Assembly (NCBI RefSeq): GCF_007752135.1
Contig: NZ_CP036298.1
Coordinates: 5,704,859-5,768,858, forward strand
Direction of reading: 5' to 3'
Length of the DNA: 64,000 bases
Source of the DNA: Aureliella helgolandensis
GTDB lineage: Bacteria; Planctomycetota; Planctomycetia; Pirellulales; Pirellulaceae
The notes below the pieces were generated by a model that had not been told where the DNA came from, did no database searches, and saw only the letters and a program-made list of their open reading frames with translations. A program made the position numbers and the translations under genes. Shown here piece by piece: positions 2,036-30,797 of this stretch; the first letter of the stretch is position 1, and the number at the start of each line of letters is the position of its first letter.

Positions 2036-5000
2036 GCGATGAAATGCCTTCGTTCAAGGAAGATCATATCTCGCAGATTCCGGCGCTGCAGTTACTGCAA
2101 CAGCTCGGTTGGAAATATCTGTCGCCCGACGAAGCTGTGGCGGCTCGCGGCGGCAAGCTGTCGAGCGTCTTGCTGGACGCGGTGCTGGTCGATCAACTCA
2201 AGAAACTGAACCAAATCGAGTTCAAGGGCGAGTCGCATTTGTTCAGCGAATCGAATATTCACTCGGCGATCCTGGCGCTGAAGGATGTTGTTTACGACGG
2301 CTTGGTGCGGACGAACGAGAAAATTTATGATTTGCTGGTGCTGGGAAAGAGTCTGCCGCAGACGATGGCAGGCGACACGAAGAGCTTTCCGCTCAGCTAC
2401 ATCGACTGGAATCCAGAGACGTGGCTGAGGAACAATGTCTTTCACGTCACGGAAGAATTCGTGGTCGAGCGTGTTGGCTCGAAGAAGACCAGGCGTCCCG
2501 ACATCGTGCTCTTTGTAAACGGAATTCCGCTTTGCGTTATTGAATGCAAGCGACCTGATACAAAAGACGCCATTGGAAAGGCTGTTTCGCAACAGATCCG
2601 CAACCAACGCGACTACAGCCTTTCACCTGACCAAGCATCGGAAGCTGAGGACCTTGATCCTGAAGAACAGTCAGCGGGAAGCGGACCGGAAATTCCGCAG
2701 CTTTTCGTATTCGCTCAGTTGTTGGTCGGCGTCTCAAAAAATCACGCGATGTACGCAACGACAGGAACGCCTGCCAAGTTCTGGTCGGTGTGGAAAGAGA
2801 ACGTCGACAAGCCACTGGCCAAGATCATATCGAAGCCGCCCAAGAAGTTGGCGGACACGCGTTGGCTGATGGATCGGTTTACCTATGTCAGCGAAGAACA
2901 AGCCGCGTACTTCACCGGCTCGCGAGCGATCACGGACCAAGACCGAGCGCTGTATTGCCTGTGTCGCCCCGAACGGTTGCTGGACTTAGCGTACTCGTTC
3001 ACCGTCTTTGACGCCGGCGAAAAGAAGGTCGCCCGATACCAGCAATACTTCACCGTGAAAAACACGCTAGGTCGAATCGAGCAACGCGACGACAACGGTG
3101 CTCGCAAAGGCGGCGTTGTCTGGCACACGCAGGGGTCGGGCAAGTCCCTGACGATGGTAATGTTGGCGAAAGAGATCGCTCGCTTGCGGTTGCCTCAGTA
3201 CAAGATCGTACTGGTGACGGACCGCGTCGACTTGGACGATCAGATTTACAAAACCTTCACCCATTGTGACATGCAGCCACAACAGGCGGCCAGTGGCAAA
3301 GATCTGGCTTCGCTGATGCAGGGTTCTGTCGGCCGCGTCATCACGACGGTGATCGACAAGTTCGATAACGCTGTGACGCGCGGCAAGCTTCGCAACGAAA
3401 GCGACAATATTTTCGTGCTGGTCGACGAAAGCCACCGCGGACAGTACAAGACGATGCACGCCAAGATGCGGAAGGCGATGCCGCGAGGTTGCTTCATCGG
3501 CTTCACCGGCACGCCGGTTCGCAAGAAAGAAAAGGACACGATTAACAAATTCGGCGGCTTGATCCAACCGACGTACTCGATTCGCGACGCGGTCGAAGAC
3601 AAAGCCGTTGTGCCACTGTTGTACGAGGCCCGCGATGTCGAGCAACGAGTCGATCGCGAAACGATTGACCGCTGGTTTGAAATCATTACGACAAATCTCA
3701 CGAAAGAACAAAAAGCGGACTTAAAGAAGAAGTTCTCAACGACGGATCAATTGAACAAGGCCGAGCAGAAGGTTCGAGAGATCGCACTCGATATCAGTCT
3801 GCACTATCGCGACAATTGGCAGGGCACTAAGTACAAGGCTCAGCTTGTCACGCAAGACAAGAAAACGGCGCTGATGTACCAGCGGTTTCTAGAAGAGTTC
3901 GGCATGGTGTCGTCGGAGGTGTTAATTTCTGGTCCGGATGATCGCGAGGGCAATGAAGAGGTCGAAATCGACGAAGAGGATCTGCCGGAGATCCAGAAGT
4001 TCTGGCGCAAGATGATGAACAAGCACGGCAGCGAAGACCAGTACAACAAGAACGTTATCAACGGCTTCAAGGCTGGCGACAATCCCGAGATCATAGTCGT
4101 GGTCGACAAGTTGTTGACGGGGTTCGACGCGCCGCGAAACACGGTGCTCTATCTGACTCGGTCACTGAAGGATCACACCTTGCTGCAAGCGATCGCCCGC
4201 GTAAACCGATTGTGTGAGGGAAAGGACTTCGGGTACATCATCGACTACCGGGGCGTGCTGTCGAATTTGCAGAAGGCGTTTGAGTTTTATCGCGAGTTGG
4301 AAGAAGCCGACCAAGAAGAACTCGAAGCGGCGATGACCAACGTGGCCGTTGAGATAGAGAAGCTGCCACGCCGTCATACGGAACTGCTCAACTTGTTCCA
4401 AAACATTGCGAATAAACAAGATGAAGAGTTGTATGAGCGGAAACTGGCCGACCAAGAGCTGCGAGATCAGTTCTATGACGCGCTGCGTGATTTCGCTCGG
4501 TCGCTGTCGATGGCGTTCGGATCGCTGGCTTTCATGGAGCAGACCCCTGACGCCAAGGTTGAGCGCTATCGCAAAGACTTGAAGTTCTTCATGAATCTGC
4601 GTTCATCGGTCCGGCATCGCTACGCCGAAGTCGTCGACTTCAAGGAGTACGAAGAGAAGATTCAAAAGCTGATCGACACTCATGTGGCGACCGGCGAGGT
4701 GAAGAAGATGACATCGCTGGTCAATATTTTCGATCGGGAGGCGTTCGAAAAGGAATTGGAAGAACTGGCAGGCAAGAGCGCCGGATCCAAGGCGGACACT
4801 ATCGCCCACCGAACCAAACGCACGATTAACGAGCGGATGGATGACGACCCAGCGTTCTATGCCAAGTTCTCCAAGATGCTTGAGGACGCGATCGCTGCTT
4901 TCCAACAGAAACGCCTCGCCGACATCGAGTACTTGAACCAAGTTCAAGACATCGCTGAGAAAATCCGTACGCGTAGCGGTGATAATTTGCCCAGCGAATT

Positions 5001-19986: not shown

Positions 19987-21243
19987 GTGACAAAAATCGT
20001 ACTGAACGATAAACAAGGCGGCGCTATTTGCGAGCTTCCGGAAACGGCGGAGGAGGTGGTTGTCAATGCAGAAGAGGATGCTCGTCGCACTGGGACGACC
20101 AAGCGACGTTCTCTTTTTGCAGCGTTTAAGTCTTCGGTTAAGACCGCAGGTTATGACATCACTGATTCCGACATGCAGACCGCGCTGAAGGCGGTTGACC
20201 AACTGCGGAGCGGTAAGGCTGTTCCAAGTATTCGATTCACCGTTCACGGCCGGATACCTGAAGGCTCCGCCGCGTCACCGAAGACAGCAAACACCCAAAT
20301 TAGGAATGAGCGACCGACGATGTCACAATCTAACAATACCACCGGACTTCGCTTCTTTGAGAACGAACAATTGTACCCCAACGACAACGCCGCTACCTGG
20401 TTCGGTCGACTTGTAGGCATTGAAGATCAAAAGCAAACCATGTTGCTGGAACTGGAATTGTTACTAAAACCCGAACTCGTCGAACAGTGGAGTAAAGAAC
20501 ACCACCAATCCATTCTTCCCGCATGTGAGATTATGTCATCCCGTGCCCCGTTGCTCGTGCTTGAGGGGGATGTTGGTTGCGGCAAGACAGTATTGGCTGA
20601 GTCCATCGGCGATCCACTTGCGAAGCGGCTTGGATGCCATGTCCATTTGATGAAGATAAACACTCAAGTGCGCGGTAGTGGCATGGTTGGAGAGATGACT
20701 GACCTAATCGCTAAGGCGTTCACTGCGATCGAGGACAAGGCGCGGCGAAACAGCGGAGAGCCGGTTCTCTTGTTGATTGACGAAGCGGATTCTCTTGCTT
20801 CAAAGCGAGCTGAACAGCACATGCATCATGAAGACAAAGCAGGTGTGAACACCTTGCTACAGCGGATCGATCGCCTACGAAGAGAAAACTTGCCGGTGGC
20901 CGTAATTTTCATTACTAATCGGCCTGAGGCATTGGACTCTGCAGTTCGTAGGCGAGCAGCCGTTTCGATTCGGTTTGAGCGCCCAAACGCCGAGGTGCGC
21001 GCAGAATTGTTTCACCGCAACTTTCCTGACCTTGCGTTAAGCGGTGCAAAGCTAGAGAAGCTGGTGAGCGCGACTGGCGAGTCGGGAAATGGACACGAAC
21101 GCTTTACAGCGTCGGACATCACTGATCGACTCATCCCTGCAGCGATCAAAATGTCTTACCTCAGCAAGACTGCAGTGACTGCGGATACTCTGATTGAGGC
21201 TGCTCAAGCGATGAAGCCGACTCCACGAATCGAGGATATTTAG
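19987..21243 (+). CDS. cap6: TRIP13/Pch2-like AAA+ ATPase (Cap6)
   Basis: The AAA+ core lies at about residues 135-410: Walker A LEGDVGCGKTVL (about 192), Walker B VLLLIDEADSLA (about 260), sensor-1 AVIFITNRPEAL (about 305), and arginines in AVRRRAAVSIRF (about 320). The N-terminal ~110 residues are a separate small domain of unknown type (RSLFAAFKSSVKTAGYDI). In type III CBASS this hexamer opens HORMA and switches the synthase off, preventing needless activation. GTG start four bases after the HORMA stop. An internal ATG at 20321 could give a shorter form, but the frame is continuous. Confidence 0.92.
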   Translation: MTKIVLNDKQGGAICELPETAEEVVVNAEEDARRTGTTKRRSLFAAFKSSVKTAGYDITDSDMQTALKAVDQLRSGKAVPSIRFTVHGRIPEGSAASPKTANTQIRNERPTMSQSNNTTGLRFFENEQLYPNDNAATWFGRLVGIEDQKQTMLLELELLLKPELVEQWSKEHHQSILPACEIMSSRAPLLVLEGDVGCGKTVLAESIGDPLAKRLGCHVHLMKINTQVRGSGMVGEMTDLIAKAFTAIEDKARRNSGEPVLLLIDEADSLASKRAEQHMHHEDKAGVNTLLQRIDRLRRENLPVAVIFITNRPEALDSAVRRRAAVSIRFERPNAEVRAELFHRNFPDLALSGAKLEKLVSATGESGNGHERFTASDITDRLIPAAIKMSYLSKTAVTADTLIEAAQAMKPTPRIEDI

Positions 21244-21244
21244 C

Positions 21245-21796
21245 ATGGCTACCGAATCTGATCTCATCATCTCTGTGGACGTTGAAACCTCCGGACCGAT
21301 TCCCGGCGAATACAGCATGTTGTCACTTGGGGCGTGGATATTGGGTTCCAACCACGAATTCTATGTTGAATTCCAGCCGCTCAATGACAATGCGGTTCCC
21401 GAAGCACTCTCCGTGACAGGGTTTTCACTTGACGCTCTACGAGAGTCGGGAAAGTCACCGAAAATTGCAATGGCTGAATTCGGCACATGGATTGAGGAGC
21501 ACGCGCGTGACCGCAAACCAGTTATGGCAGGATTCAATGTCGGCTTCGACTGGTCATTCGTGAATTGGTACTTTCACAGGTTCATGGGAGCAAACCCACT
21601 TGGATTCACCTCGATCGATATCAAGAGTCTTTTCATGGGGCTTGCGGGGTGTTCTTGGCCAGAGACGAAGTCCAGCAGAATTCCGGACCGCTTTCAGCCT
21701 ACGACGAAGGCGAACCACAACGCTCTCGACGACGCTAAGGCGCAAGGCGAGATGCTCGCTGCAATGATCTGTGCCTCACGACGAATTGCCGAATAG
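21245..21796 (+). CDS. cap18: DEDDh 3'-5' exonuclease (Cap18-like)
   Basis: All DEDDh residues are visible: IISVDVETSG (Asp and Glu, about 11-13), FNVGFDWSFV (Asp, about 100), and HNALDDAKAQG (His and Asp, about 158-163). A DEDDh exonuclease is a recurrent accessory gene of type III CBASS. A role in degrading the signal nucleotide or nucleic acid has been considered, but the function here is inference. It starts one base after the cap6 stop and closes the operon. The 183-residue length is normal for a single-domain member. Confidence 0.85.
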   Translation: MATESDLIISVDVETSGPIPGEYSMLSLGAWILGSNHEFYVEFQPLNDNAVPEALSVTGFSLDALRESGKSPKIAMAEFGTWIEEHARDRKPVMAGFNVGFDWSFVNWYFHRFMGANPLGFTSIDIKSLFMGLAGCSWPETKSSRIPDRFQPTTKANHNALDDAKAQGEMLAAMICASRRIAE

Positions 21797-22155
21797 CAGG
21801 TTGTTCTAAAACCAAAATATGGCGATCGATTGCATGCGTCGGTTTGATCGACCGAGAGCAGTTTTCGGCCACGAGATTGACCAGCCTTTGTCGTCACGTT
21901 GATAGCGCGGAAAAGCGTCTCCCAGCACAACCTCACCAATGCGCAAACTAACCGAGAGGCAGCAATCCCACCGCCCCCCCAGCGTGCCTAGCCTACCACA
22001 ATTTGGTGATCCCGAATCCGAGAGCGGTCTAGCTCATCGATACAAATTGCAGCAAGTAAGAAGCTGGTACTCAGGACGGCTGCCCCATCCGGAGCATCAA
22101 GGTGAAGTGGTATTCTTATTCCTCGTGGCTTGGCCCCTATGAACGCTGAATGGCG
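21797..22155. other. Intergenic stretch after the CBASS operon
   Basis: About 360 bases between convergent genes. No credible gene, tRNA or strong terminator is visible. Confidence 0.5.
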
Positions 22156-22860
22156 TCAGGTTTCGAATGGTCGCAGAATAACCCTGCGTAGGCTGAGGGC
22201 GGCAGCCGGAATTGAGTCAAAGCCAGCCGACTGTCGAGATTTGTTGACAGCGCGGAGGACAGTGAGTAGCTGGCGTCGGATAGGGGCGAAGCGGGTGTAG
22301 GGAATGTTTGCGAATTCTTGAGCAAGATTGTCGGTTGAGCGGCGGGTAGCTCGGTGCAGGAAATAGGCTTTGAGTTCGCGGTAGGTCTTGTTGTCGATAC
22401 GGACGCAGGAATGCCACTTGGGTTCTCTGCCGCCGGCAGGTGTTAGGCCGCTGCGGCGGTAACTGATGGAATAGCCGTTGAATTTGATGGGGTGGCGGCG
22501 GCAATCGCGGATTTGTTGCTTCTCTTCCTGCTTGAAGGGGTGATGGCCGTCGGTGATAAGAAGGATGAACCAACGCTCGAACCTGATGTATTGCATGTTG
22601 GCGAGCCCTTGCTGCTTGCGATAGGCACGCTGGCGCTCGGTGATGTCGATGTCGTATTTGGTGAGTAGTTTACGATCGACAGTTTCCGGATCTTTGCTCT
22701 CGGGGATTTGGCCGGTGACGTAGTACCAGTAGCCGTGGCGAAGGTAGCTAACTGCGACTTGCTGGACGAGTCCGGCAGGTGATGTTGCGACACAGCGATA
22801 GCTGGTTCTCCGATTGCGGACGCTTGTCGAAGGTGTTGTGCTAGCAGGCTGGCTTGCCAT
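22156..22860 (-). CDS. Unknown basic protein beside the giant RNA
   Basis: The 234-residue product is strongly basic, with aromatic-rich motifs HGYWYYVTGQIPESKDP, LANMQYIRFERWFILLITDG, HPIKFNGYSISYRR and RRQLLTVLRAVNKSR. I do not recognise the family. The composition would suit RNA or DNA binding. ATG 22860 is preferred over 22917 because GGAG lies seven bases upstream. This start overlaps the end of a 36-codon ORF (22841-22951), suggesting coupled translation. The gene lies 3' of the large structured region on the same strand and may act with it. Confidence 0.6.
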   Translation of the reverse strand: MASQPASTTPSTSVRNRRTSYRCVATSPAGLVQQVAVSYLRHGYWYYVTGQIPESKDPETVDRKLLTKYDIDITERQRAYRKQQGLANMQYIRFERWFILLITDGHHPFKQEEKQQIRDCRRHPIKFNGYSISYRRSGLTPAGGREPKWHSCVRIDNKTYRELKAYFLHRATRRSTDNLAQEFANIPYTRFAPIRRQLLTVLRAVNKSRQSAGFDSIPAAALSLRRVILRPFET

Positions 22861-22951
22861 CGAGTGACTCCAGCTTCGTACTGAGTTGAAACGCGTGACT
22901 CGAGGCTTGAACTGCAATCGACGTTCGTTTGTAGATGTTGGTGACGCTCAT
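22841..22951 (-). CDS. Short upstream ORF (36 codons)
   Basis: ATG 22951 follows an AAAGGAAA ribosome-binding site and reads MSVTNIYKRTS to a TAG at 22841. It overlaps the start of the basic protein by 20 bases in another frame. It could be a leader peptide coupling translation, or the true N terminus of the basic protein separated by a frameshift. Confidence 0.35.
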   Translation of the reverse strand: MSVTNIYKRTSIAVQASSHAFQLSTKLESLDGKPAC

Positions 22952-23084
22952 TGGCTGTTTTCCTTTTTGCTACGTTTTCCCTCGTATGTCCGCAATCGCG
23001 AATTGCACATGCCTAATTGAGAACCTAAAGAAACCGCGGCTAGCGCCAAAGCGGCTCAGTGCTATTCGGCTAGATGCAAAAGAT

Positions 23085-24800
23085 GGGGTTGTTAAGGCCA
23101 ACCCCAAGCCGTAGCGATTTTCGATCGACAAGCTGCTCTTCAAGCACAGTCGAAGGCGAAAGAAAACCCTGGTGAACGAATAATGATATTTCTACGCAGC
23201 GTGAGCGCGCGACCGACAGATGCCGCTCGCACTCTCAGGGTAGAATCTCACCAAACGCCTCGGAGCACGAATCACTAAGTCGCAGATGCACTGTTTTCCT
23301 CAGTGCACTTGCGTAATGCATAGTGCCCACAAAAATAACCTCAGCCGAACACACCGAAAGTCGCAAGACGCAACTCGGGTGTTCGTCGTCAGTCCGCCGC
23401 CAGAAGAGGCCACTCTCCCGAGTAGCCACCTCTGGCCGCATCGCTGCCTGCCAAGGACTAAAGCAATGCTGGTTGCCTTCACAGGGCGCAAGCCGTGCGA
23501 AGGCAACACGACTAAATCAGTCGCTGCATCACTCCATAGCAAATCTCTTAGCGGGGTCTTGGTTCGCGCTGGCCACTTACGCGGCTGCTCACGAAACCGA
23601 ATGCCCCTCAGCCCTTTCGTTCCTGCTTCCAGCCCACCCCAAAAGTAGAATGGCTGGTGACCGGGTCATCACTCCGGTCGTTTGCAGACGGGTCGCGACT
23701 GCCATGCCGCGCATCATGTGCCAGAATCTTTGGCACGCACATGTCTGAGCCTTCGCTCAAAACACCGTTGGCGCTTCCGCGCCAGTCCTAATCAGGCCAC
23801 ACTCCCCCACTACGGCTTTTCATGCGATTGCTCGCACTAATTCCACTCTGCTGACCAAGCAGAGCACCGAGTTGCTACACCCGGAGGCCGCAGTGGCTCC
23901 CGCGTTATCGTCAGGCTTCGATTCTAAGGTCACGTCGCTAGGACAAGTTACTGCCCGGTTCACTTAGGTATGTGCGGCCTTCCGGCCAGCCATACTCTCC
24001 GAACGATGCATTGCAGCGTTCGATTTCCCCCTACGAAAACAGAAGCTCGGGGTATCGCTCCCAAGTGAATGTTCACTGTTGGGCACCGTCTCCTTAGAAT
24101 CTTACTGGCAAGCCCTCCCTTACCTATTCGGTTGGGCCTTTCGTAGTTGAGCTTTTCACCGTCGAGTGTTTAGCTCGATCGCCGAGGCGGTCTGCCCCGG
24201 TGTCACCTGTCGCCAGATGACAGCTCCCCACGCCAGACGCGTTGAACGAACTCGCCGAAGCAAGCCCGGACCCCACGTGCAGGATTTGGCTAATCGCCGC
24301 ACCTGCTTTGTGCTTCATGCGCCGCAGCGCATGAAACAGAAGTCGAGCCGTACATAGGCTCTACTTCCCCGACGCGACCTCGCTCCCAAGCAATCAGCTT
24401 GGAGAACAAGGCATGTCCGCGTCGCCCGCACTTCCCAAACTCAGTTGTACCACTTTGCCTATTGGATAGAACGCCGGTATTACTTCGAGCTGGCTGTCTC
24501 AATACAAATGAAACAGCGAGTATTCGAGTTTACTCCGACGAGCCTCCATTGAACTGGACGAGCCACTCTCGTGGCAATCCAGCTCGAAGGGCCAGCTCAA
24601 CAGTTTTTCAACTGCGGGAAGTTAGCAAGACTTCCGGTTCTTATCCTCAGTTGATGAGACTGAGATTGGCGAACCTGCTGTCCCCGCCAAGAGACATCAG
24701 CTTTATTGCACTCTTATTCGCGACGGATTTAATGCCACGTGTTCGAGCGCATGCGTTTCTGCAAAAGCTTAACGACCGGCGAGCGGAGTAGCTCGCCTAC
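23085..24800 (-). ncRNA. Candidate giant structured RNA (unclassified)
   Basis: Some 1.7 kb holds no credible gene but many perfect or near-perfect hairpins. Examples (plus coordinates): 23287-23307 (7 bp), 23472-23507 (9 bp), 23718-23736, 23746-23759, 23769-23784 (6 bp), 23823-23836, 23846-23864, 23968-23994, 24314-24335 (9 bp), 24339-24367, 24601-24614, 24778-24797 (7 bp). Read on the minus strand the loops include GGAA (twice), GAAA and GCAA, all GNRA, and a UGCG loop; on the plus strand they are not stable tetraloops. So the RNA is probably minus-strand. GGGGTTG...CAACCCC followed by ATCTTTT at 23085-23105 may end it. It recalls the ornate large RNAs (GOLLD, ROOL, OLE) in style, but I cannot match it to any of them. 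Confidence 0.6.
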
Positions 24801-24894
24801 CCGACCATCCATAGCAGACGGGGAGAGTTTGTCACGCCTTATGAGCAATTTGTTGCAAACAGCAAAGGGTATCGTGAATTGAACTAGATTTAGG

Positions 24895-24967
24895 GTTAAG
24901 GGGTCAGGAGTCAATTGTGCGAAGCACCCGAAGGGCCGTTCCGGCAATTGACTCCTGACCCCTTAAC
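24895..24967. repeat. Long perfect palindrome, REP/MITE-like
   Basis: Arms 24895-24917 and 24945-24967 are a perfect 23-bp inverted repeat (GTTAAGGGGTCAGGAGTC... and its complement), separated by 27 bases that contain smaller hairpins. Such GGGGTCAGG hairpins occur with REP-associated Y1 transposases in many bacteria. No transposase is present here, so it would be a non-autonomous copy. It ends five bases from the repA stop and could also act as a terminator. Confidence 0.65.
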
Positions 24968-24971
24968 AATA

Positions 24972-26168
24972 CTACTTGCGTCGGAAGATCTGACGATCGG
25001 GTCGAAGCGATGAACTGTTGAACTCAGGTGAGGGCTGGTATCCCTCTTGTAACGCTTTCACGAGCCACTTGTCGGCGAAGCGGATCTGGACGCCACGTTG
25101 CCGCTGTTCGTCCATGGCCTTGAGTGCGCGAACGACAGGCTCAGCGGGATAGCCATTGATGGTTTGAATTGCCAGCATTGTCGAGATCCCGCGTTTTGAG
25201 AGTGCTTGTAAGAGTTGTAACTGTTGCGGGTTCTGCATTCCGTGCGAGGCCGCCACCTTTGCACCTCCGTAGCCGAAGGTTGCCGTCCATGTGCCGCGCC
25301 GGACCTTGGTAAAACGCGCATCGTGAGCGAGTGGCTTGAGATATCCCACCGCCTCTAGTTCTTCTGCGGCCGGGGCAATGTAGCGTTTTCTCGCCTTGTC
25401 CAATTCGATACCTGGGCTGACGCCAATGTGTTGGTAGGCTAGTCGAGCCAGGTCGAGCGTGACTTCCCGATGGTGCGGCGGATGGAAGTGCTTGTCGAGA
25501 TAGCGATACAGCCGACGGGCGGTAGCGCTCAGATCGCGAGCTAAACCGAAGTCAATGCGTTTCAAATAGCCGCTATCAAAACTTTGGAACAGCACGCTGC
25601 TCCAGCGAAACGTGGATTCCTGCTCTGTAAAGCTGCCTTTGCCTTTGCGAGCATCCAAAAAGCGAAACGAATCCAGGATGCCAAAAGCTCCCTGATCTCG
25701 AAACTGTTTTTCTTGGTTGTCACGCCACAGATTCTGATAGCTGAGCCGCACACCGACCAGACGCTGCATTCCGAGTGTGAGTCTCGCATAGGCCCAATCC
25801 GACTTGGGCCAGCCCATCAGGTCGAACAGTGCCGATCGTTGGAGGATGACTTTGGCGTCCGCGAATCCGTTGTAGTCGCTGGTGTACTTCATCAGGCCGA
25901 GGTAGATCTCTTCATCCTTGGCCGTTGGTAAGCCAAATTCTGGGTCGCCCTTGACCGTCAGCTTGCGGGAAACCGTTTGTTTCTCCTCTCGGTCATAGTC
26001 TTCGACCTCGAATTGGAGGTACTTGCGATTTCCCTGGCGTTCTGAAAGCAATGCGAATGGTAACTCGCACAGATTCATTTCGTCCCGTCCATTGGCTAGA
26101 TTATCCAGCCGCTGGGGCAACGCGACCTGTTTGGACTGAGTCTGCTTGGCTGCTTTCTTCAAAATCAC
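24972..26168 (-). CDS. repA: Plasmid replication initiator (RepA / RPA family)
   Basis: The 398-residue protein matches the replication initiator protein A group: MNLCELPFALLSERQGN near the N terminus, DREEKQTVSRKLTV, GLPTAKDEEIYLGLMKYT, then a second winged-helix-type region with LSATARRLYRYLDKHF. These proteins bind iterons and open the origin of low-copy plasmids. The gene points away from an iteron array (26248-26352) lying just upstream and from parAB beyond it, a standard plasmid arrangement. No frameshift is visible, so the replicon may still work. The C-terminal basic tail (RPDRQIFRRK) is normal. Confidence 0.85.
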   Translation of the reverse strand: MILKKAAKQTQSKQVALPQRLDNLANGRDEMNLCELPFALLSERQGNRKYLQFEVEDYDREEKQTVSRKLTVKGDPEFGLPTAKDEEIYLGLMKYTSDYNGFADAKVILQRSALFDLMGWPKSDWAYARLTLGMQRLVGVRLSYQNLWRDNQEKQFRDQGAFGILDSFRFLDARKGKGSFTEQESTFRWSSVLFQSFDSGYLKRIDFGLARDLSATARRLYRYLDKHFHPPHHREVTLDLARLAYQHIGVSPGIELDKARKRYIAPAAEELEAVGYLKPLAHDARFTKVRRGTWTATFGYGGAKVAASHGMQNPQQLQLLQALSKRGISTMLAIQTINGYPAEPVVRALKAMDEQRQRGVQIRFADKWLVKALQEGYQPSPEFNSSSLRPDRQIFRRK

Positions 26169-26247
26169 ACACAGTAGTTCTAAGTACCTTTAGTACAGTA
26201 GTAGCGTTTCGAATTCCCGAATGAGTCCTGCAACTTACCGAATTCAT

Positions 26248-26421
26248 CCGGTCTCATTTGGCGAGCCAATCGGTCTCAGTTGGCGTCCCAACCGGTTTCA
26301 TTTGATGCTCTGTTCCGGCCTCATTTCGCGTCGCAACCGGTTTCGTTTGGCGTCCTACTCAGGGCTTCGGTTCCTGTGCTACCTTTACTCAATGTGCTGT
26401 AGCAGATGAAAACGAGACCGG
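26248..26421. other. Iteron-type plasmid replication origin
   Basis: Five direct repeats of consensus CCGGTYTCATTTGGCG begin at 26248, 26270, 26292, 26315 and 26337, spaced 22-23 bp, or two helical turns. One inverted copy (ccggtctcgttttcat on the minus strand) lies at 26406-26421. The array sits between repA and parA. This is the pattern of an iteron-controlled origin; the inverted copy may serve repA or par autoregulation. Confidence 0.82.
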
Positions 26422-26566
26422 AAACTGTTTTCTTCTGAGGCTCATGAGAGCACGTTTTTTGTTGACGACCTTCGCGCTAACGTGCCACTGTATTACCAGA
26501 GAAATCAACCACTTGGCCGGAATTGCACGTCGCAATCGTTTCAAGTTGGCAGCAAGGAAGTCGATA

Positions 26567-27376
26567 ATGCCTACCACAATTTGCATGATTAATCAAAAAG
26601 GCGGATGCGGTAAGAGCTCCACTTGCTTTCATCTTGCCGGAGCGATGGCAGCCGCGGGCAAGCGAGTCTTGCTACTAGACCTGGACCCGCAGGGTTCGCT
26701 CAGTCAGGGATTCTTTGGATCCGCCGCCATTGAGACGGTCGATGGCAAAGACACCGTGGCGCGACTATTTGCCGACGGTGCCTATTTCGCTTCCATTGAC
26801 CAGTTGGCCATACCAACTCGCTATGACGGAATCTCAATCGTACTGGCCAATCAGTGCCTGGCGGAATTCAACACGCCCAAGCCTGAGAGCTCTGGTTTGC
26901 TGCAGTTCGCTGTTCGCGAGTTCCTACGGGAGGCTGTCGAATTCGATATGGTGCTCATCGACTGCCCGCCGAATCTCTACCGTTGCAGCTGGACAGCTTT
27001 GCTCGCATCGGACTTTGTCGTCATTCCCGTTCCACCGGAAGACTTTGGTACTCAGGGACTTAGAGCGGTTCACCAGACTATCGAACAGGCTCGGAAATTG
27101 AATCCTGGATTGCGGCGCCTTGGGCATCTCATCACTCGCAGCGATCGCCGTTTGTTGATCCATCGTGCCTATGAGCAGCGCGTGAGAGAGATTTATGGTG
27201 AGAATGTGTTGGAAACTGTAGTGCCGGAAGCCTCGGCATTCAAGGTTTCAGTCGCCGCTCGCACACCGGTTGAATTTGACCTGCCTCGATCGAGTGCAGC
27301 CAAGTTGACTCGTGAGCTCTGTCGTGAGATTCTCGACCGCATCGATGTGAAAACGGCAGCATTGAAGGTGGCCTAA
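26567..27376 (+). CDS. parA: ParA-type partition ATPase
   Basis: A deviant Walker A (NQKGGCGKSST, about residues 9-19), Walker A' LLDLDPQGSLSQ (about 35-46) and Walker B VLIDCPPN (about 128-135) identify a ParA/Soj MinD-superfamily ATPase. It lacks the N-terminal HTH of type Ia ParA. It partitions replicons with ParB and a parS site. Start 26567 is preferred over 26444 because AAGGAAG lies just upstream and the ParA fold begins immediately. parB follows after one base. The gene is near an iteron origin, so it serves the plasmid-like element and not the chromosome. Confidence 0.92.
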   Translation: MPTTICMINQKGGCGKSSTCFHLAGAMAAAGKRVLLLDLDPQGSLSQGFFGSAAIETVDGKDTVARLFADGAYFASIDQLAIPTRYDGISIVLANQCLAEFNTPKPESSGLLQFAVREFLREAVEFDMVLIDCPPNLYRCSWTALLASDFVVIPVPPEDFGTQGLRAVHQTIEQARKLNPGLRRLGHLITRSDRRLLIHRAYEQRVREIYGENVLETVVPEASAFKVSVAARTPVEFDLPRSSAAKLTRELCREILDRIDVKTAALKVA

Positions 27377-27377
27377 T

Positions 27378-28292
27378 ATGACAAGCACAAAACGCAAAAT
27401 CGAAGACCTAACCTCTCATCTCGACGAGTCGATGGGTAAGAGAAACGAAGGATTGCCTTTAGGGTTGGTTCCACAGTTCAGTCCGGTACCATCTCCGAAA
27501 GACATTGGGCGTCAGTCAGTTCGCGGATTCGGCGAAGTTCTCTTGGAACAGGTTGTTGTTGACCCGACACAGCCTCGAACCGTTTTTGAGCCAGCCGAAA
27601 TTGAACGCCTAGCTCAAAGCATTCGAGACAAAGGCCAGTTGCAGCCAATTCGCGTTCGCTGGGATAGCCAACTCGAAAAATGGGCGATCATTGCAGGCGA
27701 GCGTCGATTCAGAGCGACTCAGGCTGCGGGTCTGAAATCGATACAATGCTATTTCCATGAGGGCGAGATCTCAGAATCAGAAATCCTCGAGCAGCAAATG
27801 ATCGAGAACCTACTACGCGAAGACTTGCGTCCCATGGAAGAAGCCAACGCCTATGCAACGCTCATGAAACTCAACACGTGGAATGGCAAACAAGTTGCTT
27901 CCGCGTTGCGCGTTTCGCCATCACGCGTCAGTCGAGGGCTCGCTCTGCTCGATCTTCCCCAAGAGATGCAGCAGCAAATCGAGTCGGGCGAGCTACCGAA
28001 GTCGGTTGCCTACGAGCTTTCCAAGTTACCGAATGAACAGCAACAGTGGGCCGCGTATGCTCAAAAGGAGAGCCAGCCACTTTCAGTCAATAACACTAGA
28101 CGAAAAGTAAAGCAGCGACAAGGAAAAGCCCCCATTCCGCGAGGAGTGAAGCAGACCTTCTTGACCGAGGGAGAGTGGACAGTAACCGTTGCATCCAAGC
28201 GGAAGGGCAACTACCACGAAATCGAAGAAGCCCTACTGGAGGCACTTCAGGAAGTGCGCCTACGTATCGACAATAATGTGCATCTGGGATGA
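27378..28292 (+). CDS. parB: ParB-type partition protein
   Basis: A ParB N-terminal CTP-binding domain occupies about residues 50-145 (VDPTQPRTVFEP, LQPIRVRW, IIAGERRFRATQAAGL, EQQMIENLLREDL). The central HTH follows (GKQVASALRVSPSRVSRGLALLDLP, about 165-200). The C-terminal part is shorter and basic, with a helical dimerisation-like end (EIEEALLEALQEVRLRI). ParB loads at parS and stimulates ParA. I found no parS-like palindrome by eye. Length (304) and spacing from parA are normal. Confidence 0.92.
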   Translation: MTSTKRKIEDLTSHLDESMGKRNEGLPLGLVPQFSPVPSPKDIGRQSVRGFGEVLLEQVVVDPTQPRTVFEPAEIERLAQSIRDKGQLQPIRVRWDSQLEKWAIIAGERRFRATQAAGLKSIQCYFHEGEISESEILEQQMIENLLREDLRPMEEANAYATLMKLNTWNGKQVASALRVSPSRVSRGLALLDLPQEMQQQIESGELPKSVAYELSKLPNEQQQWAAYAQKESQPLSVNNTRRKVKQRQGKAPIPRGVKQTFLTEGEWTVTVASKRKGNYHEIEEALLEALQEVRLRIDNNVHLG

Positions 28293-28658: not shown

Positions 28659-29549
28659 ATGCATCCAGTACTCGGGAAAAATAGCGTCCGGAGCGTTGTT
28701 GCGGCCGGTGGCGTAATACTCGCTGGTATTTGTGTGACCTGGTGGCTTGCGTCGCCGAGACTGCAGCTAGCCCTGGTCACAGTTCTTCTCTTGGTAAATA
28801 TTCTTCTGACATTACGTGGCACGGCCAGACTGCGCGAAGGTTCTACTCTGCCAGGCAGTGTAGAGACTCTTATGCAACTCGCCAAATCGCCAGGAATCGC
28901 CAGTATCCACGACTCGATAGCTTCTTCCTTACTGACCATCGCATCAAGAAAAGACCCAATTTATTGCCGTCTAGCAGTTCAGAGCCTTGAGACTCTGGCC
29001 TTAAATTGCCAGCGGCTGGCGATGGGCACCATCGAGTACCCGTCAACCGAATCCTGGCGGGTAGTCTACGAAGAGCTTCTCCGCAGCCCAGGACTGTATC
29101 TCTATCGAAGCGTATCTTTCGTCGAAACGCAGCACTACTGGCAAGACGGCCCCGGTCGCCAGAGTACGCTTCTGAACCTGGAGTTGCACGACAAGGGTAC
29201 CGTCAACATTGAACGGATAGTGATTGTCGCTGACCATCTCTGGGAAATGGACGGATTCATCAGCGACCCCATTCGCAATTGGTTGGACGAACAACACCAG
29301 CATGGCATTTGGCTCAGGGTCGTCCGGGAATCTGAGCTAGCTGGTGAAAGTGACTTAGTTTCTGATTTTGGAATCTATGGAACTCGAGCTGTTGGTACGC
29401 AATTGGCTGACGTGAGTGGACGTACGGCCCGGTTCGTTTTGTGTTTCGATTTCGAACGTGTTGAACAAGCCGAGGAGACCTGGAAGCGGCTCGAGGTTTT
29501 TTCCAAACCTTATCGAGACATACTGGATCGAACAAACGGATCACGCTAG
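28659..29549 (+). CDS. Unknown protein with two N-terminal membrane segments
   Basis: Two hydrophobic helices (VVAAGGVILAGICVTWWLA and LQLALVTVLLLVNILLTL, residues about 10-55) precede a soluble domain of about 235 residues. This has strands such as PGLYLYRSVSFVETQHYW, IERIVIVADHLWEMDGF and TARFVLCFDFERVEQAEE. No family is recognised. The gene is followed 24 bases later by an aminotransferase-like gene on the same strand; the pair probably forms one unit. The function is unknown. Confidence 0.6.
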   Translation: MHPVLGKNSVRSVVAAGGVILAGICVTWWLASPRLQLALVTVLLLVNILLTLRGTARLREGSTLPGSVETLMQLAKSPGIASIHDSIASSLLTIASRKDPIYCRLAVQSLETLALNCQRLAMGTIEYPSTESWRVVYEELLRSPGLYLYRSVSFVETQHYWQDGPGRQSTLLNLELHDKGTVNIERIVIVADHLWEMDGFISDPIRNWLDEQHQHGIWLRVVRESELAGESDLVSDFGIYGTRAVGTQLADVSGRTARFVLCFDFERVEQAEETWKRLEVFSKPYRDILDRTNGSR

Positions 29550-29573
29550 GATCAAAGGAGAAGTCAGAACTCT

Positions 29574-30797
29574 TTGAAAGGTTTCTTGACGTTGCAGAAC
29601 GTGCTGTATCTCGATACGGCACGGCTGGGGCGAATGTCACCTCGAGCTTGCCGTGCCACCATAGATTTTGCTCGTTTGTCTCACGAGCACGGCTCGACGC
29701 TGTACTCAGATGACTTCATCCAAAGCGGCTGTGAATCTCTTCCGAAAACAATCCGTGAACGATACCCCGGTCTTCGTGATTGGCACGGGCCGTCCAGGCT
29801 CGCAGATCGGCTTCAGTCGCTAGCCTCCGCAAAGGCTGACTGGCGAGTCCTACTTGCCGCACGGTCAGCCAACGTGATGAAGTTTGCGGCGCGCCTGCAG
29901 TTCGGGCAGTGTCGCAAAGTGTTGATCACCGATCTGACCTGGCCGTCCTACGAAGCCATACTTTGCCGTCAACAGAAGCGGTCTGGCAATGGGATTCACA
30001 AAGTTGCGGTGCTCGCGAGCCTGTTGCAAGACAAATGCAGTATGGATGAAGTATTCGACCGTCTAGCCGCGCAATATGCCGAACACAAGTGCGATGGATT
30101 GTTTTTGCCGTTGGTCGACAATCGTGGCATCCACCTTCCAATCCGGAAGTTGGTGGATCGTATTCGGAGGAACGCCGAAATCCGCTTCTGCGTAGTCGAT
30201 GCGGCGCAAGCACTACATCATGTCCCACTGAATCTGCACGAAGATTACTGCGACTTCGTTGTCGCTGGTTGCCACAAATGGCTTTGCGCCCACACACCTT
30301 TGGGACTGGGATTCTATGGGCGCCAGCGATCCCGAGAATTTATTGGGGAATCGCTCGATCGTTGGCTACAAGATGGATCGATGGATGACCCACTTCTGAG
30401 CTACTTTCGTGAGCTAACCACGGGAGAATCACATCCCTTTGGTGAAACCGTGCCTGTTCTACCGATGCTGACTGCCAACGGGGCCGCCATCGATGCTGAT
30501 GAGCAGACACACGAGCGATTCCAATCTCAGAATCGACGATCGATTGTTGAGTTGATCCAAGAATCAAATTGGGAACTCGTTCTGCCAACCTCCGAGTTTC
30601 AAAGTCAAATACTACTTGCAAGACCGAGAGGAAAAGCTCCATCGCGATCGGCAAACGGAATTCGCCAGGCTTTTTTGGTACGCGGTATCGCACTAACAGC
30701 TTATGACGATGGAACCGTTAGAGTTGCGATCCCCAAGCATGTACTCAGCCACGAAGTGCTGACGCATTTACATGACACGTTCAAGCAAATTGGCTGA
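29574..30797 (+). CDS. Class V aminotransferase-like PLP enzyme
   Basis: The 407-residue product has the fold-type I PLP signature of class V aminotransferases and cysteine-desulfurase relatives. It starts with VLYLDTARLGRMSP, has FCVVDAAQALHHVPLNL (the Asp binding the pyridine nitrogen, about 208) and VVAGCHKWLCAHTPLG (Lys, about 233, expected to bind PLP), then a C-terminal domain ending RVAIPKHVLS. Substrate unknown. The start is TTG (AAAGGAG about 13 bases upstream); no ATG fits better. Its presence on a plasmid-like segment next to a membrane protein suggests an accessory pathway, for example modification of a small molecule. Confidence 0.75.
   Translation: MKGFLTLQNVLYLDTARLGRMSPRACRATIDFARLSHEHGSTLYSDDFIQSGCESLPKTIRERYPGLRDWHGPSRLADRLQSLASAKADWRVLLAARSANVMKFAARLQFGQCRKVLITDLTWPSYEAILCRQQKRSGNGIHKVAVLASLLQDKCSMDEVFDRLAAQYAEHKCDGLFLPLVDNRGIHLPIRKLVDRIRRNAEIRFCVVDAAQALHHVPLNLHEDYCDFVVAGCHKWLCAHTPLGLGFYGRQRSREFIGESLDRWLQDGSMDDPLLSYFRELTTGESHPFGETVPVLPMLTANGAAIDADEQTHERFQSQNRRSIVELIQESNWELVLPTSEFQSQILLARPRGKAPSRSANGIRQAFLVRGIALTAYDDGTVRVAIPKHVLSHEVLTHLHDTFKQIG

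Follow-up and report, generated by a model that had tools for sequence, protein, structure and literature searches.

We analysed a window of 64,000 nucleotides, that is, the whole stretch at positions 5704859-5768858 of the 8.44 Mb single-contig genome of Aureliella helgolandensis (G000, contig C1). ParA (26444-27376) and ParB (27378-28292), both assigned by Pfam, lie on its plus strand, and the minus strand carries in succession a replication initiator-like gene, F1 (24972-26168), the conserved span of an RNA (23263-24778) and a gene for an AcpG-like protein, F2 (22156-22917; conserved core 22159-22794), whose relatives adjoin the RNA. The initiator role of F1 is suggested by its position upstream of the RNA; it had no match in Pfam, NCBIfam or PDB and matched two PHROGs without assigned function (E 4e-5 to 7e-5). 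Together with 31 fetched stretches the window gave 32 loci, some ending at contig edges, among which the order ParA, F1, RNA, F2 was recurrent, with relatives of ParA at 26 loci, of F1 at 25 (the window included) and of F2 at 25. Positions 28659-30797 encode a protein without Pfam match (F7) and a class V aminotransferase-like protein (F9), with relatives at 7 and 6 of the 32 loci, respectively, sometimes on the opposite side of the RNA. Between F1 and the RNA lies a long inverted repeat around GGGGTCAGGAGTCAATTG (24895-24967), which is separate from the RNA; the 200-nt step that holds it has strongly negative fold scores on either strand (z -6.1 and -4.8), and its miRNA match in a 3-kb Rfam search was judged to be chance.

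Folding in steps of 200 nt gave minus-strand z scores of -2.2 to -6.0 in all nine steps of 23200-24999 and of -2.8 to +1.0 in the flanks (21000-23199 and 25000-26999), and the plus strand folded more weakly than the minus strand in each of the nine steps except 24800-24999. The GGAA (twice), GCAA and UGCG loops with stems that had been noticed from the sequence alone are readable in the minus-strand sequence. Coding was unsupported: the largest listed ORF between the genes at 22156-22917 and 24972-26168 has at most 141 aa, mismatches against two homologues showed no codon phase (70/78/73 and 158/160/168), and 2 of 12 and 6 of 26 indels, respectively, were multiples of three. The window RNA can be read for at most 165 aa without a stop, an ordinary length for shuffles (136 +/- 30), and in 75 homologues the longest such run had a median of 176 and a maximum of 401. 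ORFs overlapping the RNA (families F4, F8 and F11) are mutually similar at up to 10 of the 32 loci, which we take to be a by-product of conserved nucleotides. The minus strand from about 24780 to 23260 is a gene for a strongly structured and apparently non-coding RNA, and the giant ornate RNA proposed on this strand by the sequence-only reading was borne out by the fold scores and the lack of coding support. A consensus scan placed a terminator-like hairpin on the same strand at 23084-23106, where a terminator had been suspected (23085-23105); blastn pieces cover this site at two places in genome G013 and weakly in G080. On Halomonas plasmid pHaKG2_3, an annotated hypothetical protein (L180:2384-3208) overlaps the RNA match and is possibly a false gene call within structured RNA.

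A search with nhmmer returned 93 rows, or 87 loci when split rows of one locus were merged; 80 loci, each filling more than 60% of columns, were retained, and removal of every column with at least 50% gaps (3718 to 1218) yielded a profile-HMM alignment, not fitted to structure, of 80 sequences by 1218 columns with a mean identity of 0.61. Mapped onto the window, this alignment and its RNAalifold structure place the 5' end of the RNA near 24778 and its conserved 3' end near 23263. Sixty column pairs exceeded every pair in 12 null alignments simulated on the tree; each was canonical in 75% or more of sequences, compared with 13% for random pairs, and 55 fell in the RNAalifold structure of 273 pairs. 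Stems of this RNA thus covary among homologues. Three of the five remaining pairs are the middle pairs of an 8-bp pseudoknot on the minus strand between the hairpin loop CUNNNUUC (24035-24042) and GAANNNAG near the 3' end (23291-23298). They show the strongest covariation outside the nested structure and are canonical in 77/78, 78/78 and 79/79 sequences. By its position the pseudoknot is probably D3-D1, one of three published (D3-D1, P1-3' end and D2-P2). The idea that the three pairs form an incompatibility code between copies in the same genome was not supported, as both copies in G068 have the same triplet and two of the three copies in G013 also agree.

The 5' part of the RNA holds elements of a group II ribozyme on the minus strand. 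First, domain 5 (24551-24585), the catalytic hairpin GAGC...GAGA...GUUC, is identified by a match to RF00029 and by conservation. The match (24522-24587, 23.4 bits, E 0.0074) came from a cmscan search of 181 bases placed knowing the location and lies below the gathering score of 40; an earlier 3-kb Rfam search did not report the hairpin. GAGC is conserved in 73, 66, 73 and 72 of 73 sequences at its four positions. In a search of eight distant members, domain 5 of a Leptolyngbya homologue cleared the Rfam group II threshold (L143 4916-5011, 47.6 bits), and this match falls inside the aligned RNA. Second, domain 6 (24463-24548) is a long hairpin with a 20-bp helix and six significantly covarying pairs, and its A at 24467, invariant in 77/77, is by position the proposed branch point, a putative bulged nucleophile. 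Third, a proposed 3' splice site AU (24461-24462; 77/77) is followed by a linker, or 'exon' (24303-24460), of 158 nt, for which 77 homologues have 65-337 nt (median 94), and then by a proposed 5' splice site GUGCG (24298-24302), whose GUG (24302-24300) is present in 77/77 and whose full GUGYG form in only 13/77. Fourth, a conserved D1-like core junction with the motif (A/U)AGCUCAAC lies at 24105-24236.

The order along the RNA is therefore D5-D6-linker-D1. The same order, in which D5-D6 lead, reversed splice sites flank a linker and D1-D4 come last, is given for the circularly permuted (CP) group II RNAs (PMC8637638), a rare class of large ribozymes, formerly T-large RNA, reported by Roth, Weinberg, Vanderschuren, Murdock and Breaker in 2021; this paper was the only description of the class among the literature matches listed. 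Its available passages count about 290 sequences, name Deinococcus-Thermus, Firmicutes and Proteobacteria, and describe the RNAs as often plasmid-borne and often beside AcpG in varying orientation, with the biological role given as unknown; in Polaromonas, RT-PCR showed expression and no processing (PMC8637638).

Two models of the core were used, R1 from 48 of the 80 aligned sequences (length and identity cuts) and R2 from 11 proteobacterial plasmid cores of a 14-sequence alignment, near-duplicates and one poorly ended sequence being left out. R2 found the published, expressed locus on pPNAP05 of Polaromonas, which is absent from the model, at E 5.8e-25. In a search of 16 kb it also matched pTT8 of Thermus (E 9.4e-4, 20.9 bits), on a strand that runs divergently from a neighbouring 259-aa ORF, in agreement with what the available part of PMC8637638 says of that plasmid. 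Over 32 sources (460 kb), R2 gave 26 matches with E <= 1 in 25 sources, with 15 sources below 0.01 (best E 1.5e-4) and none at 7 of the 32 loci; 20 matches agreed with the R1-core coordinates, three of them by start only, and the other six lay at a similar distance before F2. In the window the R2 match, again at 24105-24236, is weak (E 0.44). R1 found the Calothrix (two copies) and Leptolyngbya plasmids, both outside its training set (4.5e-24 and 5.9e-16), and gave no match on pTT8 or on a pPNAP05 stretch that misses the RNA side of the record. We assign the RNA to CP group II because D5, D6, AU, GUG and the linker are conserved and because R2 matches both pPNAP05 and pTT8. It is a member of this class by models of sequence and structure, and its catalysis is predicted from the class. 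An initial view of the RNA as a novel class was dropped when the RF00029 match in the Leptolyngbya homologue pointed to the permuted ribozymes. We are highly confident that the region encodes a CP group II ribozyme beside a partner gene that is probably acpG, and that the two belong to a plasmid-type replicon or to an element of plasmid origin now in the chromosome.

Other known RNAs were compared with the locus. Canonical group II introns likewise have a D5-like catalytic hairpin, a D6 with an invariant A, and AU and GUG boundaries; unlike them, the window RNA is permuted, shows no exon interruption and has no RT ORF in D4, and a canonical intron (D1 to D6 with an intron-encoded protein in D4) was rejected because D5-D6 precede the D1-like core. 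GOLLD, ROOL and OLE are also large, ornate, conserved bacterial RNAs, and GOLLD and ROOL occur on phages and prophages (PMC12286853). An unrelated giant RNA of this style, forming RNA-only complexes, would suit the size, the mobile-element context and the many tetraloops, and the covarying loop-tail pairing might join separate molecules, as it does in ROOL and GOLLD. Yet none of these families matched at E <= 5 in 22500-25500, the RNA has a linked protein gene, and R2 homology to CP group II together with conservation of D5 and the splice sites makes it a group II relative, so that we give this explanation very little credence. At gathering threshold Rfam called only a tRNA in the 64-kb window and nothing in the RNA region. 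The sequence-only reading, which had called for such a search, had likened the RNA to these families without matching any of them, and had named a known intron class as the finding that would speak against it; the class found is of that kind. CP group II loci like this one go unannotated because Rfam calls nothing above threshold here.

With the CP group II class the locus shares the D5-D6-linker-D1 order, AU and GUG boundary segments inside the RNA and a covariance model, as well as a long-range pseudoknot, plasmid residence, a neighbouring AcpG-type ORF whose orientation varies, and the lack of an internal ORF. It differs in size, as the conserved span of the window is about 1.5 kb and the available passages give a class average near 900 nt (PMC8637638). 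It also differs in spread, being found here mostly in Planctomycetota and in addition in Acidobacteria-labelled MAGs and cyanobacterial plasmids, set against the phyla named in those passages.

The distribution of the RNA is patchy. With blastn the window RNA has one copy in its own genome and no match in PLSDB plasmids or INPHARED phages. Counting that genome, 36 of 98 genomes gave matches at E <= 0.1, of which many are short and weak. With a strict filter, the core was found in 39 of 296 genomes of the order and 3 of 199 genomes of the phylum. Some planctomycete genomes carry at least two copies (L033/L034 in G068 C80; L031/L032/L045 in G013), and in one planctomycete genome two copies lie 14 kb apart on one contig. 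Calothrix plasmid5 has two equal-scoring cores 2.1 kb apart (L144:2853-2971 and L144:4994-5112), one of them directly before AcpG.

The RNA usually accompanies F2. Iterated nhmmer found it in 87 of 95 distinct stretches upstream of F2, a fraction biased by loci that were chosen by RNA match. Among the eight misses, L119 and L125 have the RNA farther upstream, two Paraburkholderia and the Pandoraea carry a diverged form, and R1 gives a weak match (E 0.0055) in the gap of Planococcus; this leaves L086 and the second F2 of L071 with no RNA match. Averaged over the 40 loci analysed of 66 eligible ones (9 shuffles each), sense z scores were -1.7 to -4.1 from -1600 to the start of F2 and -0.4 to 0 inside and after F2; antisense means upstream were also negative (-1.3 to -3.2), and individual loci such as L119, L125 and L144 showed little signal. 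All seven plasmids first inspected had a gene-free stretch just upstream of F2, in gene tables that are incomplete, and on the Pandoraea plasmid an IS256 gene interrupts it. In 78 homologues the RNA lies on the same strand as AcpG, 110-1086 nt (median 225) upstream of its core, and this arrangement, like the pairing at 87 of 95 loci, would suit an RNA that acts in cis on the AcpG-like gene, as its long 5' leader or its regulator. However, the RNA strand is opposite AcpG in E. coli, Azotobacter, Burkholderia, Gluconacetobacter and Paraburkholderia plasmids (the core motif itself in the E. coli, Azotobacter, Gluconacetobacter and B. glumae plasmids); L119 and L125, with no RNA directly before F2, have it over 5 kb upstream; a terminator-like hairpin lies 3' of the window RNA; and 3-kb E. 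coli plasmids have the RNA and no annotated AcpG. A leader function is thus most improbable in our judgement.

In E. coli the RNA occurred in 21 of 5426 genomes and 22 plasmid records, of which 15 (27-35 kb) carry RNA and F2, while 7 (2.9-3.08 kb) match only the RNA part of the query; by annotation, the three 3-kb plasmids inspected encode RepL and a few short ORFs, none AcpG-sized except RepL. The RNA also occurs on small plasmids together with AcpG. On pMtBL the RNA lies at about 2996-3883; the available parts of two papers report that OriR (1918-2759) is the basis of replicating vectors and that almost the whole plasmid is transcribed (PMC10033558), and that a vector with the origin alone was lost while the whole plasmid was stable, which was ascribed to ParAB (PMC6848147). 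A replication-control or priming RNA would agree with the position beside rep and parAB in planctomycetes and with RepL in the three minimal E. coli plasmids. Nevertheless, the pMtBL RNA is outside OriR, for which reason a replication origin is disfavoured, and we consider a replication-control or priming RNA a very unlikely reading of the locus. As the RNA occurs on mini-plasmids without annotated AcpG and outside the pMtBL origin, the CP group II ribozyme looks like an independent plasmid gene, neither origin nor AcpG leader; the mobile-element link suggested earlier has held in the sense that the RNA is tied to plasmid biology.

F2 is probably AcpG, the protein reported beside CP group II RNAs, judging from its place and from the pPNAP05 protein. 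In a search of six sequences with a 77-member AcpG profile, the neighbour protein on pPNAP05 scored 28.8 bits and the 259-aa pTT8 ORF, which we take to be TTHC007, the founding member of AcpG, scored 0.3 bits; since the profile does not detect the pTT8 protein, the identification of F2 draws on the pPNAP05 protein and on position. Searches of Pfam, NCBIfam, PHROGs and PADLOC gave no match to F2 that was consistent. The best 80 of 131 relatives in genome contigs were kept; most come from MAGs of Planctomycetota, and some carry the label Acidobacteria, Bdellovibrionales or Calditrichota, although MAG labels may be binning errors. A tblastn search placed F2 on 11 plasmid records, among them those of Leptolyngbya, Calothrix, Planococcus and Paraburkholderia, and with a Pandoraea query on 27, 10 of them of E. 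coli; IMG/VR contigs and INPHARED gave none. Acetobacteraceae plasmids encode longer relatives of 388 aa (L182:6192-7358 and L187:4986-6152), possibly with an extra domain.

The available part of PMC8637638 states that no homologue of AcpG was found. The AlphaFold2 model of F2 has a pLDDT of 94.1, and Foldseek gave no match at E 0.001 in the PDB or in a viral library, where several RNA polymerases were among the weak matches. The best PDB match was 8h2h_D, which belongs to a complex of a group II intron with its RT (E 2.2e-3, probability 0.84, TM 0.32), followed by a retron complex chain (E 0.07) and then unrelated folds. The model runs helix, strand, two helices, hairpin, helix, strand, hairpin and three helices, an order which we take to follow the RT palm and thumb. 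Comparison of 77 AcpG with nine group II RT sequences was not significant, the reversed control scoring slightly higher. With 15 distant relatives added, the 92-sequence profile matched RT locally with E 0.0011 and a score of 33.3 (hhalign probability 20%), against 18.3 for the reversed control and at most 20.2 for 20 column-shuffled ones; AcpG 69-161 aligned to RT 279-379, starting just before YADD (291-294). Global alignment of this profile to the palm-thumb piece of RT failed, and YADD was absent at the aligned place in 24 rows of the AcpG alignment. Tentatively, and leaning slightly against it, we consider that AcpG may be a degenerate, dead group II intron RT (palm and thumb, YADD lost) that split off from the intron and now assists the permuted ribozyme in trans, acting much as a maturase would to scaffold it. 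The pair would parallel eukaryotic spliceosomal RNA and Prp8, and, if AcpG is a worn-down RT, the locus would be another natural case in which a group II-type RNA has retained an RT that is dead.

Following the in vitro chemistry published for the class, the transcript would fold and the D6 adenosine would attack the 5' splice site that lies within it; the predicted products are a large branched RNA and a small circle of 158 nt. Less certainly, AcpG may bind the RNA like a maturase, and our best guess is that the resulting RNP might aid plasmid persistence, not acting as a replication origin. Beyond the published passages of PMC8637638, what is new here is the wider spread, the large number of planctomycete members, covariation in excess of a tree-based null, the mini-plasmids on which no AcpG was seen and the possibility that AcpG derives from an RT. 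For comparative work the planctomycete branch offers over 80 aligned RNA loci, and the small RepL and RNA plasmids of E. coli and the pMtBL system with its cured host make function testable in tractable strains.

Two further observations concern other RNAs and introns. The 10-kb Azotobacter plasmid pAcX50a carries an RsmZ-like sRNA (RF00166; L188:729-872, E 1.9e-11). In addition, the window genome has three matches to GIIM, the maturase domain of canonical group II introns (C1:3938178, 6518319 and 6874830), and both kinds of intron may coexist in it.
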